37,148 nt of DNA. Source: a bacterium (GTDB lineage: Bacteria > Patescibacteriota > Minisyncoccia > Minisyncoccales > RBG-13-42-11). Position numbers and translations under genes: made by a program. The stretch covers positions 1 to 37,148 of the forward strand of contig JAUSLA010000023.1 of assembly GCA_030646565.1 (NCBI GenBank), written 5' to 3'. Positions 872-35,211 of this stretch are shown piece by piece. Under the pieces are notes generated by a model. It was given only the letters and a program-made list of their open reading frames with translations. It did no database searches and was not told the DNA's origin. Position 1 is the stretch's first letter. Each line of letters opens with the position of its first letter.

Positions 872-3445
872 ATGTCATTCTTATCTAAGGTCTTTGGCGA
901 CGCTAACGAGAAATATGTAACTAATATCCAGCCCATTATTGAGAAGATAAATTCCCTTGAAGAACAGTTCAAGGGTTTTTCTGATGAAAATTTAAAAGAA
1001 AAAACACAAGAATTGAAGGCAAAATTAAACGAAGCCCGAGGTTGTTTATTGGATGATATTCTTCCCGAAGCATTTGCTTTAATCAGAGAAGCTGCTAAAA
1101 GAACTCTTAATCAAAGGCATTTTGATGTGCAGTTGGTTGGTGGTATTGTTTTGCATGAGGGTAACATTGCTGAAATGAAAACAGGCGAAGGAAAGACATT
1201 GGCTGCCACCTTGCCTGTCTATTTAAACGCTTTAACCGGAAAAGGGGTTCACGTAGTCACGGTGAACGACTATTTGGCAAAAAGAGACGCGGTTTGGATG
1301 GGGCAGATTTATAATCTTCTTGGATTGTCAATAGGATGTATTATGCATGAGGGGGCATATACATATGACTCTGCTTATATGAGTCCCGCGAAGCGGGATG
1401 AGTCGAAGAATATCCATTCTTCTTCATCCCTCGCTACGCTCGGACAAATTAAGAAGAGAACGCAGTTCTCTTCGCCTCAACAGGAAGCTCCTGTTTTAGC
1501 TGGCGAACGCGACAAAGAAAGAGATATTATTGGAGGATTTAAGGTTTTTGATAGTTATCTAAGGCCTTGTCAGAGGAAAGAAGCGTACGCGGCCGATATT
1601 ACTTATGGTACCAACAATGAGTTTGGGTTTGATTATTTGAGAGATAATTTAGTATATGATCTGCAACAACAAGTTCAGAGAGGGTTTAATTATGCCATTA
1701 TTGATGAAGTCGACTCAATCTTAATTGATGAAGCCAGAACTCCTCTGATTATTTCAGCTCCCGATACGGAAAGCTCGACATGGTATCGAGAATTTTCCAG
1801 AATAATCCCGAAATTAGATTCAAAAACCGATTATGAAATTGATGAAAAAATGAAGGCCGTTACTTTGACGGAGGGAGGAATTAATAAAATTGAAAAAATC
1901 CTGGGAATGGAGAATATTTATGAAGCGCGGGGAATAAAGTATCTGCATTATTTAGAGCAGGCTTTAAAGGCAGAAGTTCTTTTTAAAAAAGACAAAGACT
2001 ACGTAGTGAAGAATGGCGAAATTATTATTGTGGATGAATTTACCGGAAGATTGATGCCGGGCAGAAGATGGTCGGGCGGACTTCATCAGGCAATTGAAGC
2101 AAAAGAAAATGTAAGAATTCAGGCAGAATCAATTACTTTAGCTTCAATTACTTTTCAGAATTATTTTCGTCTTTATAAGAAATTAGCCGGAATGACCGGA
2201 ACTGCCGCCACTTCAGCTGAAGAATTTGATAAAGTTTATAATCTGGATGTAATTACAATTCCGACTCATAGACAGCTGATAAGGAAAGAGTTGCCGGATA
2301 GAATTTATAAAAATGAAAAAGGAAAATTTGAAGCGGTTGTCAGAGAAATTAAAGAAAGGCATAATTTAGGACAGCCTATCTTGGTTGGCACCACCTCAAT
2401 TGAAAAAAATGAATATTTGGGAAAGTTATTGGACAGAGAGGGTGTTCCCCACGAAATTCTTAACGCAAAGAATCATGAAAAGGAAGGAGAAATTATCGCG
2501 CAAGCAGGCAGATTTGAAGGTGTTACCATAGCTACAAATATGGCGGGCAGAGGAGTGGATATCGTTTTGGGAGGCAACCCGCCGAATTCCGATGGGGCTC
2601 AAAAAGTTGTAGAACTCGGCGGACTTCATATAATTGGCACAGAAAGGCATGAAGCCAGAAGAATTGATAATCAGCTAAGAGGAAGATCTGGCAGGCAGGG
2701 AGACCCGGGTTCCTCTCAATTTTTTCTTTCTTTGGAAGACGATATATTGAGAATTTTTGGGTCAGATAGAATAAAATCTTTAATGGGTGTTCTTAAAATT
2801 CCAGATGACGAGGCCATTGAGGCAAAAATGGTTTCCGGAGCAATTGAGTCGGCCCAGGCGAAAATCGAAGGAATGAATTTTGATTTGAGAAAGCATGTTC
2901 TAGAATATGATGACGTAATGAATAAACATAGAGAGGTGATTTATAAAAAAAGAAGAGAGATACTGGAAAAGTCTAAAGTCCAAAGTCTAAAGTCCGAAGA
3001 CGGCCTAAGATTCCATATCCTTGAATTAATTAAAAAAAATGGTTTTACAGAAGCCGATTATGAAAAAAAAGAGAAAGAGATTGGCGAGGAAAAAATGAGA
3101 GAAGCAGAAAAAATTGTTTCCTTGAGAGTTTTAGATATGTTTTGGCTGGAACATTTGGAAAATATGGAGCATCTAAGGGATTCTGTGAGATTGAGGGCTT
3201 ACGGCCAGAAAGATCCTTTAATTGAATATAAATCAGAGGGCCACAAAATGTTCCAGGGATTATTAAGCCAGATTGAAAAGACCACCGCGGATACTTTAAT
3301 GAAAGTTATGATTGAAGAAAATCCTTCACCGACTTCTTTGGTTTCTCGAGCACCCTCAACTATCAAATCAAAAAATATTCCTGGTCGCAATGACCCATGC
3401 GTGTGTGGAAGCGGGAAAAAATATAAAAGGTGTTGTGGGAAGTAG
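872..3445 (+). CDS. secA: Preprotein translocase ATPase SecA, with a palindromic-element insertion
   Basis: The ATPase that pushes unfolded preproteins through SecYEG; 857 aa, normal family length. The Walker A GEGKT is at residues 105-109. The hallmark block AYAADITYGTNNEFGFDYLR, the DEVDSILIDEARTPL block, the NMAGRGVDI helicase motif and RGRSGRQGDPG are all present. A C-terminal SEC-C zinc motif ends the protein (C843, C845, C854, C855). Residues about 170-202 are not SecA: they are encoded by a reverse-oriented long palindromic element (1380-1477) sitting in the loop just before the AYAADITYG block. A short tandem repeat (2971-2995) adds a few residues around KSKVQSLKSE. secD and secF lie downstream. 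Confidence 0.97.
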   Translation: MSFLSKVFGDANEKYVTNIQPIIEKINSLEEQFKGFSDENLKEKTQELKAKLNEARGCLLDDILPEAFALIREAAKRTLNQRHFDVQLVGGIVLHEGNIAEMKTGEGKTLAATLPVYLNALTGKGVHVVTVNDYLAKRDAVWMGQIYNLLGLSIGCIMHEGAYTYDSAYMSPAKRDESKNIHSSSSLATLGQIKKRTQFSSPQQEAPVLAGERDKERDIIGGFKVFDSYLRPCQRKEAYAADITYGTNNEFGFDYLRDNLVYDLQQQVQRGFNYAIIDEVDSILIDEARTPLIISAPDTESSTWYREFSRIIPKLDSKTDYEIDEKMKAVTLTEGGINKIEKILGMENIYEARGIKYLHYLEQALKAEVLFKKDKDYVVKNGEIIIVDEFTGRLMPGRRWSGGLHQAIEAKENVRIQAESITLASITFQNYFRLYKKLAGMTGTAATSAEEFDKVYNLDVITIPTHRQLIRKELPDRIYKNEKGKFEAVVREIKERHNLGQPILVGTTSIEKNEYLGKLLDREGVPHEILNAKNHEKEGEIIAQAGRFEGVTIATNMAGRGVDIVLGGNPPNSDGAQKVVELGGLHIIGTERHEARRIDNQLRGRSGRQGDPGSSQFFLSLEDDILRIFGSDRIKSLMGVLKIPDDEAIEAKMVSGAIESAQAKIEGMNFDLRKHVLEYDDVMNKHREVIYKKRREILEKSKVQSLKSEDGLRFHILELIKKNGFTEADYEKKEKEIGEEKMREAEKIVSLRVLDMFWLEHLENMEHLRDSVRLRAYGQKDPLIEYKSEGHKMFQGLLSQIEKTTADTLMKVMIEENPSPTSLVSRAPSTIKSKNIPGRNDPCVCGSGKKYKRCCGK
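1380..1477 (-). repeat. Long palindromic element inside secA
   Basis: Read on the minus strand it gives GGCGA, hairpin 1 GAGAACTGCGTTCTC, the CCGAG...GAGGG middle hairpin, GAAGAATGGATATTCTTC, and hairpin 2 TCCCGCTTCGCGGGA ending ACTCA. This is the same order of modules as the intergenic copy at 21920-22019. It stays open in the secA frame. Confidence 0.88.
2971..2995 (+). repeat. Short tandem repeat inside secA
   Basis: Units of the type GTCTAAAGTCCAAA repeat here (GTCTAAAGTCC occurs twice, joined by AAA). It encodes a variable, lysine/serine-rich surface segment in the C-terminal helical part of SecA. Confidence 0.6.
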
Positions 3446-6899: not shown

Positions 6900-7141
6900 A
6901 AGAAACATAATCTTCGGGCAATTTACCCCGGGTGACCACGCAGTTTCCGTTCGGCCAACTTGCCTTAGGGAGCACGCCATCGGCTTAATTAGAAGAAAGA
7001 AGTTTATTTCCAGCCGTGGCTATTTCTCGCCCCGCCTCCTTAACTTAGAAGATAGTTTATAGTCAGTAGCGGGCGGGGCTGCGAAGTGCACCCTTCGGCA
7101 AGATTGGCCTCGCTTAAAGATTTTTTATTCGTACATTCGTA
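6900..7141. other. Gene-free spacer after secF
   Basis: No supported gene on either strand. It holds degenerate palindromes. CTTCGGGCA...CCGGGTGA at 6911-6934 is similar to one at 12669-12692, suggesting a second small repeat family. GCCCCGCC around 7030 and GGGCGGGGC around 7074 can pair. The rest shows no recognisable structure. Confidence 0.5.
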
Positions 7142-7244
7142 TACCGAGTCCCGCTTTGCGAAGAACTTTCGTTCTTCTTTACCCTTCGCCTGTGGCTCGG
7201 GTGCGGGACGAAGGTGAAGAAGAGAACGAAGTTCTCTTCGCCTT
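7142..7244 (-). repeat. Palindromic element, long form (rearranged)
   Basis: Read on the minus strand it has GGCGA, hairpin 1 GAGAACTTCGTTCTC, TTCACCTTCG, then CCGAGCC/GGCGAAGGG and GAAGAACGAAAGTTCTTC modules, ending with part of hairpin 2 and CTCGGTA. Hairpin 2 lacks one arm, so the copy looks partly deleted. Confidence 0.8.
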
Positions 7245-7261
7245 AATTCGTAATTCGTAGG
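7238..7261 (+). repeat. 24-bp direct repeat, copy 1
   Basis: TCGCCTTAATTCGTAATTCG plus TAGG, identical to 12743-12766. It includes the GGCGA end of a reverse-oriented palindromic element plus 19 nt of flank with a tandem ATTCGTA. The shared flank suggests that this end of the element is longer than the core consensus, or that one copy was duplicated with its flank. Confidence 0.75.
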
Positions 7262-7293: not shown

Positions 7294-7310
7294 TAGGATA
7301 ACATAATATC

Positions 7311-7366
7311 AGCGACGAGGACTACGTCCTCGTCTTCACCTTCGTCCGCCAGAGGCGGACTCGGTG
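7311..7366 (+). repeat. Palindromic element, short form
   Basis: GCGA, hairpin 1 GAGGACTACGTCCTC, GTCTTCACCTTCG, hairpin 2 TCCGCCAGAGGCGGA, CTCGGTGG. It stands directly upstream of a second, differently built copy. Confidence 0.9.
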
Positions 7367-7420
7367 GTTAAAGAAGATAAATCTTCTTTTCCACCTCGCT
7401 CAATTTTATTGAGCTCGGTT
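7367..7420 (+). repeat. Palindromic element, short form (subtype with TTTTCCACC linker)
   Basis: Hairpin 1 AGAAGATAAATCTTCT, linker TTTCCACCTCG, hairpin 2 CTCAATTTTATTGAG, CTCGGTTT. The stems differ completely from the copy 60 nt upstream, but the layout is the same. It ends right at the start codon of the next gene. Confidence 0.88.
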
Positions 7421-12769: not shown

Positions 12770-14011
12770 ATGGAGATTAAAAATCTAAAAAAGGCGGCAA
12801 AAAGAATCCTGAAAGCGATAGAAAAAAAGGAAAAAATCATTCTCTACGGAGACGCGGATTTAGACGGCGCGGCTTCGGTAATTATTTTGAAAGAAAGCGT
12901 TAAAAGCTTGGGCGGAAATATTTGCGCGATTTATTTTCCGGATAGGGAAATTGAAGGACATGGCATTACAAAAATGGGTTTGGAATTTCTAAAAAAAGAA
13001 GCTCCGGCTCTTTTAATCGCCGTGGACTGCGGCATTGGAAACTTAAAAGAAACGGCAATGGCAAAGAAAATGGGTTTTTCGGTTTTGATTGTTGACCATC
13101 ACGAGGTTTTGGATAAAATGCCAAAAGCCGATATTATTGTCGACCCTAAACAAAAAGGGGATAAATACTATTTTAAGGGATTGGCCGCAGCCGGAGTTGT
13201 TTTCAAACTCGCAGAGGCCCTTTTTGAGGAGAAAATGGCGAAGAGGACTGCGTCCTCGTCTTCAACTACCCGAGCGAAAACGAAGGGTGGAGAAGAACGA
13301 AAATTCTTCGATTCGTCCTGCAAGCAAGACTCAATGACGGAGAATCTAAGAAAGAATTTTTTGGAATTGGTGGCTTTGGCCACTTTAGCGGATATGATGC
13401 CTCAAGAAGCAGATAATAAGGTTTTTATTTCAGAAGGGCTTCAATCTTTGGAAAATTCCTGGCGGCCCGGAATAAAGGCGTTTTTTGAAACAGAATTTTT
13501 GGAGGAATTTTCCGGAATAAGTCAGAAGGTCGCCAAAATTATTTCTGTTTTAAACGTCAGAGACGTTGAGAGTCGGTTTCCGGCAAGTTTCAGATTGTTG
13601 ACCGTCGTTTCTCTTTCGGAGGCCGGAAGAATCATTGAAGAACTTTTTGAAAGGAGTAAAATTAGAAAGGAAGTAATAAATGGCACCGTAGATGAAATTG
13701 AAAAAATTATAGCTGAAAAAGACGAATCTATTGTTTTTGAAGGAGATTCCTCTTTTGACCTTGCCTTGTTGAGTGCGGCTGCATCAATAATTTGTCAAAA
13801 ATTCCAAAAGCCCGTTTTTCTTTATAAAAAAATGGCAAAAGAGTCCCAGGGTACGGTGCGTGTGCCCTCTGGCGTAGACAGTATTGCCTTAATGAAAAAA
13901 TGCTCAAAATATCCCTTGGCTTTTGGCGGCCATCCGAAAGCGTCGGGTTTCAGGATAAAAAACGATAATTTAGAAAAATTTAAAACTTGTTTAATAGAAA
14001 ATTATCGGTAG
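12770..14011 (+). CDS. RecJ-like DHH-family single-strand exonuclease with element insertion
   Basis: 413 aa, shorter than classical RecJ (about 550+). DHH-domain metal motifs are present: GDADLDGAAS (27-36), AVDCGIG (about 84-90), VDHHE (D109-H110-H111) and TLADMMP. The C-terminal DHHA1 domain ends with AFGGHPKASGF, the GGH substrate motif. Such proteins degrade single-stranded DNA 5'-3' or small oligonucleotides; the short form could be either. Residues about 156-188 (TASSSSTTRAKTK through CKQDS) come from a long palindromic element (13237-13335) inserted in frame between two DHH motifs. Start ATG 12770. Confidence 0.87.
   Translation: MEIKNLKKAAKRILKAIEKKEKIILYGDADLDGAASVIILKESVKSLGGNICAIYFPDREIEGHGITKMGLEFLKKEAPALLIAVDCGIGNLKETAMAKKMGFSVLIVDHHEVLDKMPKADIIVDPKQKGDKYYFKGLAAAGVVFKLAEALFEEKMAKRTASSSSTTRAKTKGGEERKFFDSSCKQDSMTENLRKNFLELVALATLADMMPQEADNKVFISEGLQSLENSWRPGIKAFFETEFLEEFSGISQKVAKIISVLNVRDVESRFPASFRLLTVVSLSEAGRIIEELFERSKIRKEVINGTVDEIEKIIAEKDESIVFEGDSSFDLALLSAAASIICQKFQKPVFLYKKMAKESQGTVRVPSGVDSIALMKKCSKYPLAFGGHPKASGFRIKNDNLEKFKTCLIENYR
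13237..13335 (+). repeat. Long palindromic element inside the recJ-like gene
   Basis: GGCGA, hairpin 1 GAGGACTGCGTCCTC, TTCAACTACCCGAG...CGAAGGGTGGA, GAAGAACGAAAATTCTTC, then a decayed hairpin 2 (GTCCTGCAAGCAAGAC) and TCAATG. About 99 bp, a length compatible with a frame-neutral insertion. Confidence 0.9.
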
Positions 14012-14068
14012 TCAAAGAGAACTTTGTTTTCTTTTCCACCTGCGTCCCGCTTACAGCGGGACTTGGTA
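14011..14068 (+). repeat. Palindromic element, short form (GTCAAAGA subtype)
   Basis: GTCAAAGA, hairpin 1 AGAGAACTTTGTTTTCTTT, TTCCACCTGCG, hairpin 2 TCCCGCTTACAGCGGGA, CTTGGTA. Tandem with the next copy. Confidence 0.85.
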
Positions 14069-14127
14069 GGCGACGAGGCCTTCGGCCTCGTCTTAATCTT
14101 CGCTTTCGCTACGCGAAAGCTTGATGA
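14069..14127 (+). repeat. Palindromic element, short form
   Basis: GGCGA, hairpin 1 GAGGCCTTCGGCCTC, GTCTTAATCTTCG, hairpin 2 CTTTCGCTACGCGAAAG, CTTGATGA. It abuts the ATG of the RNase HI gene. Confidence 0.88.
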
Positions 14128-14571
14128 ATGAAGAAAATTATTATTTATACGGACGGCGGTTCGAGAGGGAACCCGGGGCAGGCGGCAATTGGAGTTGTTT
14201 TTTGCAACGAGAAGGTCCAATGCTTTAAAAATTACACAGAATACCTGGGAGATAATTTCACCAACAACGAAGCTGAATACATGGCGGTGATTTTTGGCTT
14301 GAAAAAATTTAAAGCCCTTTTCGGGAAGAAAATCGCCAAGACCTCGGATATTGAAATAAGGACGGATTCAGAGCTTTTAGTCAAACAACTTAAAGGTGAG
14401 TATAAAATTTTAGAACCAAAAATCCAACTTTTGTTTATTGAAATTTGGAATATTAAAATTGATTTTCAGAAAATAAAATTTACACATATTCCCCGTGAAA
14501 AGAATAAAGAGGCAGATGCATTGGTTAATGAGGCCTTAGACATTCAAGGGAGACAAGCAACGATAATATAA
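14128..14571 (+). CDS. Ribonuclease HI family protein
   Basis: 147 aa. Cuts the RNA strand of RNA-DNA hybrids, as in primer and R-loop removal. The four catalytic carboxylates are visible: D in YTDGGSRGNPG (residue 8), E in TNNEAEYMA, D in RTDSELLVKQL, and the final D in NKEADALVNEAL. The basic handle of E. coli RNase HI is absent, as in many short bacterial and archaeal forms. Start ATG 14128 sits directly behind a repeat element with no Shine-Dalgarno sequence. Confidence 0.9.
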   Translation: MKKIIIYTDGGSRGNPGQAAIGVVFCNEKVQCFKNYTEYLGDNFTNNEAEYMAVIFGLKKFKALFGKKIAKTSDIEIRTDSELLVKQLKGEYKILEPKIQLLFIEIWNIKIDFQKIKFTHIPREKNKEADALVNEALDIQGRQATII

Positions 14572-14581
14572 AGATATTACA

Positions 14582-14637
14582 GTCGACGAGAACTGCGTCC
14601 TCGTCTTGACCTGGGTCCTGCTTCGCAGGGCTTGTGT
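14582..14637 (+). repeat. Palindromic element, decaying copy
   Basis: GTCGAC, hairpin 1 GAGAACTGCGTCCTC with one mismatch, TCTTGACCTGG, hairpin 2 TCCTGCTTCGCAGGG, CTTGTG. The mismatch suggests an old copy no longer under exchange. Confidence 0.75.
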
Positions 14638-14649
14638 TTTAACGGGGGC

Positions 14650-19836: not shown

Positions 19837-19917
19837 ATGCTTAAAGCCACCAAAGAGACAAGAATAATCCAGATTATTTTTATAAATTTTCGCGACATAC
19901 ACCGAGCTTTCGCGTAG
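19837..19917 (+). CDS. Possible 26-aa leader peptide or gene remnant
   Basis: ATG 19837 lies about 20 nt after the predicted transcript start, with GAGGAG upstream (spacing too long for a good Shine-Dalgarno). The product would be MLKATKETRIIQIIFINFRD plus IHRAFA; the last residues come from the first palindromic element, which supplies the stop. It may be the start of a gene cut short by the element. Confidence 0.25.
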   Translation: MLKATKETRIIQIIFINFRDIHRAFA

Positions 19918-19958
19918 CGAAAGCGAAAGTTAAGATGAGGACGCAGTCCTCATCGCCT
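19900..19958 (-). repeat. Palindromic element, short form
   Basis: Reverse orientation: ACCGAG, hairpin 2 CTTTCGCGTAGCGAAAG, CGAAAGTTAAGA, hairpin 1 TGAGGACGCAGTCCTCA, TCGCCTA. Tandem with the next copy. Confidence 0.88.
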
Positions 19959-20009
19959 ACTCGAGCGAAGCGAAGAGTAAAGATGAGGACGCAGTCCTCA
20001 TCGCCTAAT
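19959..20009 (-). repeat. Palindromic element, tandem second copy
   Basis: Hairpin-1 half identical over 28 nt to the previous copy (AAGATGAGGACGCAGTCCTC and on through TCGCCTA), but hairpin 2 is replaced by CTCGAGCGAAGCGAAGAG. It ends 2 nt before the ATG of the DivIC-like gene. Confidence 0.85.
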
Positions 20010-25094: not shown

Positions 25095-25111
25095 AGTAGA
25101 ATAAAGCTAGA

Positions 25112-25168
25112 GGCGAAGAAAACTTTGTTTTCTTCTTCACCTTCACTGGCATAAATGCCAGCTTGGTA
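25112..25168 (+). repeat. Palindromic element, short form
   Basis: GGCGA, hairpin 1 GAAAACTTTGTTTTC, TTCTTCACCTTC, hairpin 2 CTGGCATAAATGCCAG, CTTGGTA. Both stems are new sequences on the same scaffold. Confidence 0.9.
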
Positions 25169-25186
25169 AAAGAGTAGGGTATAAAC

Positions 25187-29242: not shown

Positions 29243-29246
29243 TTTA

Positions 29247-29280
29247 CCCTTAAAATCTCGGTTCTAGACCGAGGTTGCCA
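29247..29280. repeat. CTCGGT hairpin repeat, copy 1
   Basis: TAAAATCTCGGTTCTAGACC then GAGGTTG: stem CTCGGT/ACCGAG with a 4-nt loop. Nearly identical to 31944-31978. Not followed by a T tract. Confidence 0.75.
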
Positions 29281-29341
29281 GTCCGACCAATCAAGACCTG
29301 GAAAATAAAATGTTAATATTAAATAATTTAAAATTTATCCG

Positions 29342-30787: not shown

Positions 30788-31009
30788 ATGGCAAGACAGT
30801 TTACAGCAATATATAAAAAAAGCGGAAAATGGTATCTAGGATGGATAGAAGAAATCCCGGGGGTTAATACTCAAGGAAAAACTCTAAAAGAGGCAAAAGG
30901 AAATCTAAAAGAGGCACTTTTGTTAATTCTGGAAACTAATCGCGTTTTCAATAAAAAAGAAATTTCCAAGGGTAAGGTTATTCGTGAACCTCTTTCTGTT
31001 TCTATATAA
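30788..31009 (+). CDS. hicB: HicB-family antitoxin
   Basis: 73 aa. Partial RNase H-like HicB fold: FTAIYKKSGKWYLGWIEEIP then GVNTQGKTLKEAKGNLKEAL, the typical pattern. No C-terminal DNA-binding domain, so it is the short form. Placed before the toxin gene (B-A order). Apparently leaderless. Confidence 0.88.
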   Translation: MARQFTAIYKKSGKWYLGWIEEIPGVNTQGKTLKEAKGNLKEALLLILETNRVFNKKEISKGKVIREPLSVSI

Positions 31010-31066
31010 GACGAAGAGGAATTTATCTTCTTCTTCACCATCGTTTCTATAAATAGAAACTCGGTT
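31009..31066 (+). repeat. Palindromic element between hicB and hicA
   Basis: GACGA, hairpin 1 AGAGGAATTTATCTTCT (one mismatch), TCTTCACCATCG, hairpin 2 TTTCTATAAATAGAAA, CTCGGT. It starts at the hicB stop and ends at the hicA start, so the toxin message carries a hairpin directly before its start codon. Confidence 0.88.
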
Positions 31067-31067
31067 G

Positions 31068-31262
31068 ATGAAACGAAAAGATTTAATTAAACATCTTTCT
31101 AAAAATAACTGTATTTTTATAAGAGTGGGCGCAAGACATAGCGTCTTTTTTAATCCATTGCTTAGAAAATCATCTACCGTTCCTCGCCACGTAGAAATTG
31201 ACAACTTTTTAGCAGAGAAAATTTGTCGAGACCTTGGAATAGTGTCACCAAAAAGAAAATAG
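31068..31262 (+). CDS. hicA: HicA-family mRNA interferase toxin
   Basis: 64 aa. dsRBD-like HicA fold: KRKDLIKHLSKNNCIFIRV, catalytic histidine in GARHSVFFN, then SSTVPRHVEIDNFLAEKICR and a final DLGI. Cuts mRNA when HicB is lost. Start ATG 31068; a TTG directly before it is in frame. Confidence 0.88.
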   Translation: MKRKDLIKHLSKNNCIFIRVGARHSVFFNPLLRKSSTVPRHVEIDNFLAEKICRDLGIVSPKRK

Positions 31263-31897: not shown

Positions 31898-31943
31898 AGA
31901 GGCAATTCCGACAATTGAACTCTTGCAAAATAAAAAATAGATT

Positions 31944-31978
31944 CCCTTTAAAATCTCGGTTCCAGACCGAGGTTGTCA
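31944..31978. repeat. CTCGGT hairpin repeat, copy 2
   Basis: AAAATCTCGGTTCCAGACCG then AGGTTGTCA, almost the same as 29247-29280, with a T/C change in the loop. Confidence 0.75.
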
Positions 31979-31987
31979 TTCTTAGAT

Positions 31988-32015: not shown

Positions 32016-32019
32016 TAAA

Positions 32020-32074
32020 GGCGATGAGGACTTCGTCCTCATCTTCAGCTTCGTCCCATAAATGGGACTTGCTA
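32020..32074 (+). repeat. Palindromic element in the leader of the coiled-coil gene
   Basis: GGCGA, hairpin 1 TGAGGACTTCGTCCTCA, TCTTCAGCTTCG, hairpin 2 TCCCATAAATGGGA, CTTGCTA. It fills the 5' leader exactly, ending 1 nt before the ATG. Confidence 0.88.
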
Positions 32075-32075
32075 T

Positions 32076-32338
32076 ATGGAAAAGAAAAACATTACAATTG
32101 ATGATTTAGCGGTAATGGTTCAAAAAGAATTCCGTGAGATTGACCAGAAATTGAGTAAATTAGATAGTAATGATCAAATAATACTTAAGCGATTAGAGGG
32201 CGTAGTTTATCGAACAGAGTAGGGCGAAGAGAACTGCGTTCTCTTCTTTACTTTCGTCCGCCAGAGGCGGACTTAGTATTAGAAGTTAGGGTTATTGAAT
32301 TAGAAAATCTGCTCGCAGTAAATACTAAAAAGCGGTAG
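32076..32338 (+). pseudogene. Small coiled-coil protein gene disrupted by a palindromic element
   Basis: ATG 32076 gives 48 residues (MEKKNITIDDLAVMVQKEFR ... KRLEGVVYRTE) to TAG 32220-32222. The rest of the protein, LEVRVIELENLLAVNTKKR, is encoded at 32279-32338 after a 56-bp element. Removing 32223-32278 joins the two parts in one frame, with only the TAG codon between. The family, common in CPR genomes, is a small coiled-coil protein of unknown function (from memory). The 48-aa fragment may still be made, since the promoter is intact. Confidence 0.75.
32223..32278 (+). repeat. Palindromic element that interrupts a gene
   Basis: GGCGA, hairpin 1 GAGAACTGCGTTCTC, TTCTTTACTTTCG, hairpin 2 TCCGCCAGAGGCGGA, CTTAGTA. 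GTA-like bases stand at both borders (GAGTA | GGCGA ... ACTTAGTA | TTAG). Confidence 0.92.
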
Positions 32339-33660: not shown

Positions 33661-35211
33661 ATGGATAATCAAGAAGTTATTTTAAGATTTGACAAAGTTT
33701 CTTTTAGCCACGGCCACAGCAAACCCATTTTAAATGAGGTCAGTTTTTCTATGAGGCGGGGATCAAAAATTACTTTAATGGGCCAGAACGGCGCGGGCAA
33801 AAGCACTATTTTCCATCTCATCATCGGCGTCTTGGAGCCTGATTCGGGCGCTATTCATCTTGGCGCCGGGCTTACTGTGGCCGCAGCCAAACAAATCATT
33901 CCCCGGGATCAGCTCCATCTTACCTTGAGGGAGTTCTTCCAGAACTGCTTTAAAGAAAAGATTTATGATATTGATCCTAGGATTGACGAGGTTTTGAAAG
34001 TGGTCAATATGTCGCCGAGTCCTGCGAAGCAGGGCGAATCGAAGAACTTACGTTCTTCTCTACCCTTCGTTGCTACTCGGGCAGGCAAAGATGAAGCAAA
34101 GCTTCATCGCCCAGCTGACCATGGCAGGTTGATTAAATCGTTTTCTGGCGGACAACAAGCCAGGCTGCTTTTGGCTTCAGCTATTATCCAAAACCCTGAT
34201 TTGTTGCTTTTAGACGAGCCGACTAATAATCTGGATAAGGAGGGGATCAGCCATTTGACGCAATTTCTGATTGATTATCAGAAAACCTGCATTGTTATTT
34301 CCCACGACGCTGATTTCCTGAATGCTTTTACCCATGGCGTTTTATATTTAGATATTTTCACCCGTAAAATTGAGCAATACACGGGAAATTATTTTGATTT
34401 ATTGGTTGAAATCGCGGCCAGAATCGAAAGGGAAAACAGGAAAAATGCGCAGTTAGCCAAGAGAATTTTAGAGAACAAAGAAAAGGTAAACTATTTTGCC
34501 CAAAAAGGAGGCAAGATGAGGCTGGTGGCGAAGAAAATGCGGGACCAAGCCAAAGAGATGGAAGAAGCCAAAGTTGACGTTAGGAAGGAGGATAAGACCA
34601 TCAGGCCTTTTACTATTCCTTGCCAGCAGAATATTGGCGGGGAAATTTTGAATATCACTTCTTTCTCGGTTGTGGAGAAACACAAGCTTGTAAAAAAAGA
34701 AGCCAAGATTTCTTTAAGGAAAAAAGAGCGCTTGCTTTTAGTTGGGCCCAATGGTATTGGCAAAACCACTTTGCTTGAATCTTTGGCTTCGGGTAAAGCC
34801 AAGGGCGCAAAAATCACTCCGGGCGTTAAGGTGGGATATTACCGTCAGGATTTTTCTACTCTTAACTTTGACGACACGGTCTATCAATCTCTAATTTCAG
34901 TAGCCGAGGATTCGTCTGAAGAGAGTATCCGTTCTCTGGCGGCCGGTTTTTTAATTACCGGCGACTTGATTTATTCGAAAATCGGCAGCTTGTCCGAAGG
35001 CCAAAAAGGTTTAGTGTCTTTAGTTAGGCTCGTGCTCCAAAAACCCGGCCTGCTTATTTTGGACGAGCCAACCAATCACATCAACTTCCGTCATTTACCG
35101 GTTATTGCAGACGCTTTGAATCAATACGATGGCGCCATGGTTTTGGTCAGCCATATGCCTGAATTCGTCGGGCAAATCAGGATCGATGAGATTCTTGATT
35201 TGAGCAAATAA
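33661..35211 (+). CDS. ABC-F family ATPase with element insertion
   Basis: 516 aa with two ABC domains and no membrane part, the mark of ABC-F proteins that act on the ribosome. Domain 1: Walker A GQNGAGKS (41-48), signature FSGGQQAR (161-168), Walker B LLLLDEPTNNLD. A linker with KVNYFAQKGGKMRLVAKKMR follows. Domain 2: GPNGIGKTT, LSEGQKGLVSLVRL, LILDEPTNHIN (usually NHLD). Residues 118-151 are encoded by a long reverse-oriented palindromic element between Walker A and the signature of domain 1. Which ABC-F subfamily is unclear. Confidence 0.92.
   Translation: MDNQEVILRFDKVSFSHGHSKPILNEVSFSMRRGSKITLMGQNGAGKSTIFHLIIGVLEPDSGAIHLGAGLTVAAAKQIIPRDQLHLTLREFFQNCFKEKIYDIDPRIDEVLKVVNMSPSPAKQGESKNLRSSLPFVATRAGKDEAKLHRPADHGRLIKSFSGGQQARLLLASAIIQNPDLLLLDEPTNNLDKEGISHLTQFLIDYQKTCIVISHDADFLNAFTHGVLYLDIFTRKIEQYTGNYFDLLVEIAARIERENRKNAQLAKRILENKEKVNYFAQKGGKMRLVAKKMRDQAKEMEEAKVDVRKEDKTIRPFTIPCQQNIGGEILNITSFSVVEKHKLVKKEAKISLRKKERLLLVGPNGIGKTTLLESLASGKAKGAKITPGVKVGYYRQDFSTLNFDDTVYQSLISVAEDSSEESIRSLAAGFLITGDLIYSKIGSLSEGQKGLVSLVRLVLQKPGLLILDEPTNHINFRHLPVIADALNQYDGAMVLVSHMPEFVGQIRIDEILDLSK
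34014..34111 (-). repeat. Long palindromic element inside the ABC-F gene
   Basis: Minus strand: GGCGA, hairpin 1 TGAAGCTTTGCTTCA, TCTTTGCCTG, CCCGAGTAGCAACGAAGGG, TAGA, GAAGAACGTAAGTTCTTC, GATTCG, hairpin 2 CCCTGCTTCGCAGG, ACTCGGCGA. All modules are in order and the frame stays open. Confidence 0.92.

Follow-up and report, generated by a model that had tools for sequence, protein, structure and literature searches.

Does a short hairpin-forming repeat that stands between the two halves of a small coiled-coil gene mark an insertion into an existing gene, and, if so, what kind of element is it? The locus lies in the window, by which we mean the whole stretch of 37,148 nucleotides analyzed, which is contig C57 of a Parcubacteria-like genome of ~770 kb in 74 contigs (G000). 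Judged by one neighboring protein, its nearest named relatives are of the Parcubacteria type (Nealson-, Staskawicz-, Nomura-, and Wolfebacteria). Our comparison set comprised 59 related genomes, and G000 is the sole member of its genus among the genomes compared. The repeat, here called R1, and the gene that it interrupts are laid out as follows.

Positions 32019 to 32073, plus strand: R1 copy (74.1 bits) that fills the leader of the interrupted gene and ends 2 nt before the ATG at 32076 (GCT-AT-ATG).
Positions 32076 to 32222, plus strand: 5' part of the small coiled-coil gene, 48 codons to VVYRTE, then a TAG formed at the left junction.
Positions 32221 to 32277, plus strand: the interrupting R1 copy, 57 nt, a unit of the form A-GGC...GGT that here reads AG-GGC...AGT; covariance model match at 32218-32282 (67.8 bits, E = 1.5e-16), borders taken from the flank profile.
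Positions 32279 to 32338, plus strand: stranded 3' part of the gene, LEVRVIELENLLAVNTKKR followed by a stop, identified by homologue search and alignment.

When the joined coiled-coil protein was searched against the 59 related genomes, its homologues ran through the insertion site unbroken, which shows that the 3' half downstream of R1 is old coding sequence. The preliminary description had proposed this alignment with intact relatives, and none of the homologues ends at VVYRTE. Five homologues aligned across the site read E-F-[ED]-x-L-[EK]-x-R-V against E-stop-element-L-E-V-R-V in the window; all five carry three extra residues exactly at the junction (FEK, FEK, FDE, FEE, and FEI), and the window has none. 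The reading frame does end at the TAG at 32220-32222, the coiled coil does continue past the element from the TTA at 32279, and a second copy does fill the 5' leader of the same gene, all as first described. The element had also been given as 56 bp at 32223-32278. A two-hairpin element is indeed present there, but, judged by the family as a whole, its unit is the 57 nt given above, which starts 2 nt earlier and ends 1 nt earlier than first stated. Similarly, the idea that exact removal restores the frame with the TAG as the only extra codon survives in part: taking out 56 nt keeps the TAG in frame, and taking out 59 nt joins TE to LEVRV, but the join lacks the three codons of the homologues and removal of the 57-nt unit leaves the frame broken. 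Since the three junction residues are missing relative to the homologues, removal of R1 mends the reading frame without recovering the ancestral sequence. We infer that the insertion was not traceless and that R1 either arrived with, or later underwent, a loss of ~7 to 8 nt. The claim that the insertion was mapped to within a few bases is not upheld, given the absent codons, the different unit edges, and the lack of any visible target duplication at 32221-32277. A GTDB scan with the neighboring CYTH protein for a syntenic empty site returned 17 loci, none adjoining the coiled-coil gene and none with R1. The interrupted gene, which has a paralogue on contig C45 (L009), is most likely inactive.

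To describe the family, a covariance model with two hairpins and 18 pairs was built from nine copies in the window. In the interrupting copy, which exceeds chance both in DNA folding (z = -4.6) and in the genome search with the model (the E value above), the hairpins are placed by fold and covariation as follows.

Positions 32226 to 32246, plus strand: hairpin 1, a 9-bp stem with a 3-nt loop.
Positions 32256 to 32272, plus strand: apical stem of hairpin 2, 7 bp with a 3-nt loop, not including the basal ACC/GGT stem of the family.

Across 150 aligned copies, 93% of the base-pair cells hold standard pairs, and doubly changed cells number 431 against 143 in shuffles, or three times as many. The covariation score is 0.368 compared to ~0.10 at most when the partner is slid, and a slide of a single column collapses it. 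Because the copies were aligned to the structure itself, the compensatory counts are inflated, yet variable pairs of hairpin 1 (AU:79, UA:44, CG:19) are visible by eye. Some copies are compound, their hairpin 2 enclosing an inverted element. Elsewhere in the genome, a tandem array of minimal units with hairpin 2 shrunk to ACC-TTC-GGT is found at L078 124-290 (G000:C59).

Further copies are scattered over the window, both between and within genes:

Positions 1378 to 1481, minus strand: compound copy in frame in secA (open reading frame [ORF] 872-3445), 38.7 bits for 1425-1481; an extra or unalignable segment relative to solved SecA.
Positions 7138 to 7247, minus strand: compound copy of 64.2 bits, the apical loop of its hairpin 2 holding an inverted element.
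Positions 7306 to 7369, plus strand: intergenic copy, 64.3 bits.
Positions 14064 to 14130, plus strand: copy of 77.5 bits whose GGT equivalent (GAT) lies 2 nt before the start of an ORF at 14128 that reads like RNase H.
Positions 14577 to 14640, plus strand: intergenic copy, 49.4 bits.
Positions 19896 to 19962, minus strand: copy of 75.2 bits, ending 2 nt before a minus-strand ATG.
Positions 25107 to 25172, plus strand: intergenic copy, 67.7 bits.
Positions 31005 to 31070, plus strand: copy of 67.2 bits, ending 2 nt before an ATG.
Positions 34029 to 34116, minus strand: degenerate compound copy in frame in an ABC-F-type ATPase gene (ORF 33661-35211); a weak model match (18 bits, E = 0.0014) and the inverted-repeat partner of 13256-13321, supported also by alignment.

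The window holds 31 matches at E values up to 1, partial and palindrome-reverse matches included. An Rfam search of the window returned three tRNAs only, with R1 having no match above the gathering score. The window also contains a second repeat pair, AAAATCTCGGTTCNAGACCGAGGTTG, at 29244-29283 and 31942-31981, both intergenic and apparently unrelated to R1. We counted 173 model matches (E <= 1e-4) over 274 kb of G000, a density to be read as an upper estimate because the stretches were partly picked for richness, and genome-wide there are at least 153 matches among the part of the candidates that was scored. R1 makes up ~3 to 4% of the DNA in the sampled stretches. It is also common in G007 (138 matches), G022, G006, G026, G001, and G004, present in small numbers in a few more genomes, and absent from 41 of the 59 relatives; a phylum-wide sample of 145 genomes added a single further genome with a match. 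This patchy distribution within one order, with near-absence elsewhere in the phylum, fits a mobile element.

Copies within genes point in the same direction. Of 150 copies, 37 lie inside ORFs, and among short copies in long ORFs the length, taken over the A-GGC...GGT unit, is divisible by 3 in 16 of 21, compared to 42 of 115 elsewhere (Fisher p = 8e-4). Extra or unalignable segments relative to solved homologues coincide with R1 in LeuRS, CopA, SecA, and the ABC-F protein; in LeuRS, taking out 54 nt yields a loop equal in length to that of the Thermus protein. Two copies are read in frame in a DNA-ligase-like ORF (L074 2704-4326, minus strand, G022:C23). Copies in genes show no leading/lagging strand bias (37 versus 45). 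The coiled-coil gene broken while its homologues are intact, the insertions relative to solved homologues, and the length bias to multiples of 3 all support the original suggestion that the element moves into existing genes.

When flanks were aligned, conservation stopped at A-GGC to the left and at GGT to the right, and the sole clear signal beyond was a purine (R) at +5 followed by A at +6, counted from GGT (an NNNTRA signature, 0.5 to 0.9 bits per position). These RA bases are native codons in two genes, being the GA of TTA-GAA in the coiled-coil gene and the AA of ATT-AAG in the LeuRS copy, and so they probably belong to the target and not to the element. On the same grounds, we rejected the 3' TRA as part of R1.

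The most unusual observation of this study is the exact spacing of R1 from start codons. Of the copies whose end is clear, 15 of 106 in G000 (22 under a looser ORF rule) and 9 of 53 in G007 (15 under the looser rule) stop exactly 2 nt short of the selected gene start, and every other spacing is represented by at most two copies. Relative to an expectation in which each available intergenic site counts according to the target signature, the excess is ~14-fold in G000 and ~9-fold in G007 (binomial p = 4e-13 and 4e-7); these figures rest on approximate gene calls from ORFs, and the p values treat insertions as independent events. A simple preference for the target would not account for so exact a spacing. 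Copies of the form GGT-NN-ATG are seen at 32019-32073, 14064-14130, 31005-31070, and 19896-19962 of the window and also at L087, L083, L097, and others, in at least two genera. In the sampled stretches of G000 and G007, Shine-Dalgarno-like 4-mers are not enriched before starts (GGAG/GAGG in 5% at -20 to -4, versus 6 to 9% farther upstream), and gene starts favor A at -3 and T at -1. R1 may be tolerated before starts because Shine-Dalgarno motifs are not enriched there, although this does not explain the exact 2-nt spacing.

We consider it probable, at about 0.72, that R1 is a nonautonomous two-hairpin palindromic element that has multiplied to a very high copy number and has broken the coiled-coil gene. 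Weighing against this reading are the lack of strand bias among copies in genes, the absence of a visible target duplication and of an empty site from the same genus, the exactness of the spacing at start codons, and the Y1 results given below. That it is instead a classical REP mobilized by RAYT seems doubtful to us, even though its high copy number, palindromes, BIME-like inverted compounds, and copies in genes are what such a system would give. Like REP/BIME sequences and REPtrons, R1 is mostly but not only intergenic, shows compensatory stem changes, and forms tandem and inverted compounds (PMC2817692, PMC3733652), and intragenic REPs are known in several bacteria, including in DNA ligase and tRNA synthetases (PMC3733652). 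A RAYT gene flanked by inverted REPs is the defining mark of the REP/RAYT system (PMC2817692), and G004 has one candidate for it at L063 1187-2076 (G004:C81), a Y1/RAYT-like gene between inverted R1 copies that lie, in turn, within inverted arms of 108 nt together with a further palindrome (TTGCTTCACC-CGGTGAAGCAA). However, its product scores 31.7 bits against a cutoff of 80 for the NCBIfam RAYT model, and since R1 there seems nested in a longer palindrome and may be a passenger, the link to Y1 is only suggestive. Against REP/RAYT also stand the unit of two dissimilar hairpins and the GT[AG]G foot, which is found at the 5' end of only 36 of 229 copies, many of which seem to come from the GGT of one copy meeting the AGGC of the next. 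Moreover, no Y1/RAYT gene was detected above the cutoff in G000 or G007, the two richest genomes, and PF01797 is absent in G000. Y1 genes are common in the order, occurring in six of nine R1-rich genomes versus about half of the rest, but most of those examined have no adjacent R1: among 30 Y1 loci searched, significant matches near Y1 were found only in G004 and G022 and never as the end hairpins of one element. A Y1 transposase as the mobilizer was thus rejected, being undetected above the cutoff in the richest genomes and uncorrelated with R1 number.

The sharp GGT-NN-ATG peak, the pairs kept by compensation, and the starts lacking Shine-Dalgarno enrichment could alternatively mean that R1 is mainly a functional 5' leader RNA that controls or enables translation without Shine-Dalgarno motifs, with all other copies being by-products of its spread. 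We think this rather unlikely, since the majority of copies do not precede a start, about a quarter lie in ORFs and in both orientations there, and many are intergenic, tandem, or nested, with no Rfam match. It is quite improbable that the palindromes owe their origin and variation to template switching or slippage in replication and not to transposition: stems that vary freely yet stay perfectly paired would suit this, as would tandem copies with common flanks (L086:12554 and 12632; window 22710 and 22833), but the unpaired GGC, TTCACC, and CTCGGT are conserved across genera, and sharp borders with dispersed, unrelated flanks require copying between loci. We give least credence to an error of assembly or binning at 32220-32278 in a repeat-rich metagenome-assembled contig. 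Two similar copies do lie 150 bp apart in a genome of 74 contigs, but they differ in both hairpins, the gene halves are in the correct order, and similar in-gene copies stand in frame on several other contigs and genomes.

Among other known systems, R1 resembles the Rickettsia palindromic elements (RPE), which are ~150 bp long and lie in frame in protein genes, as described in a review (PMC10969869). Like them, it is short, palindromic, numerous in a small host-dependent genome, and found in frame in protein genes (PMC10969869), but its description sets it apart, with ~57 nt, two separate hairpins, an occurrence outside Rickettsia, and the start-codon position. CGTC-tagged REPs, including the rickettsial RPE-4 and RPE-6, are likewise abundant palindromes without a dedicated transposase, some of them in DNA repair or translation genes (PMC3733652); in contrast, the R1 consensus, inspected by eye, shows neither a CGTC tag nor a CCA tail at either end, and it has two hairpins per unit. 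The two subterminal hairpins and short flanking target of R1 would suit single-strand insertion, as in nonautonomous derivatives of IS200/IS605 (PMC6006769). Unlike these, however, it has a weak target ~3 nt from its end and no lagging-strand bias in genes, and no tnpA element bounded by R1 ends was found. A literature search outside of which most subscription papers lay returned nothing on palindromic elements in Patescibacteria. R1 behaves like intragenic REPs and RPE but mostly lacks the REP foot and has no clear RAYT partner, and it is therefore best read as a new REP/RPE-like type of element that would be a member of neither family.

For the two-hairpin mobile element that we favor, we propose that R1 inserts as a hairpin-folded single strand, recognizing its target as an adjacent TY(A)NNN of the complementary strand, and that an enzyme acting in trans, perhaps HuH/Y1-like, moves it. 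Copies would persist where they are least harmful, namely, between genes, in frame in protein loops, and just before starts that seem independent of Shine-Dalgarno motifs. The coiled-coil gene, which has a paralogue, would have been hit by an insertion that either was not in frame or brought a small deletion with it, probably inactivating the gene. A further, tentative possibility is that R1 is fitted to translation without Shine-Dalgarno motifs, being inserted or selected 2 nt upstream of starts so that its hairpins serve as a ready-made 5' leader, and is moved by an enzyme not recognized so far. If this is true, R1 supplies one common structured leader to many genes of a minimal genome.

The reduced genomes of Patescibacteria are usually viewed as streamlined, and here a repeat takes up several percent of the sampled DNA with copies in essential genes. 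R1 offers a natural test of how a palindromic element moves without an obvious transposase. Moreover, its exact spacing from start codons, where Shine-Dalgarno motifs are not enriched, raises a testable question on translation initiation in a large uncultured branch.
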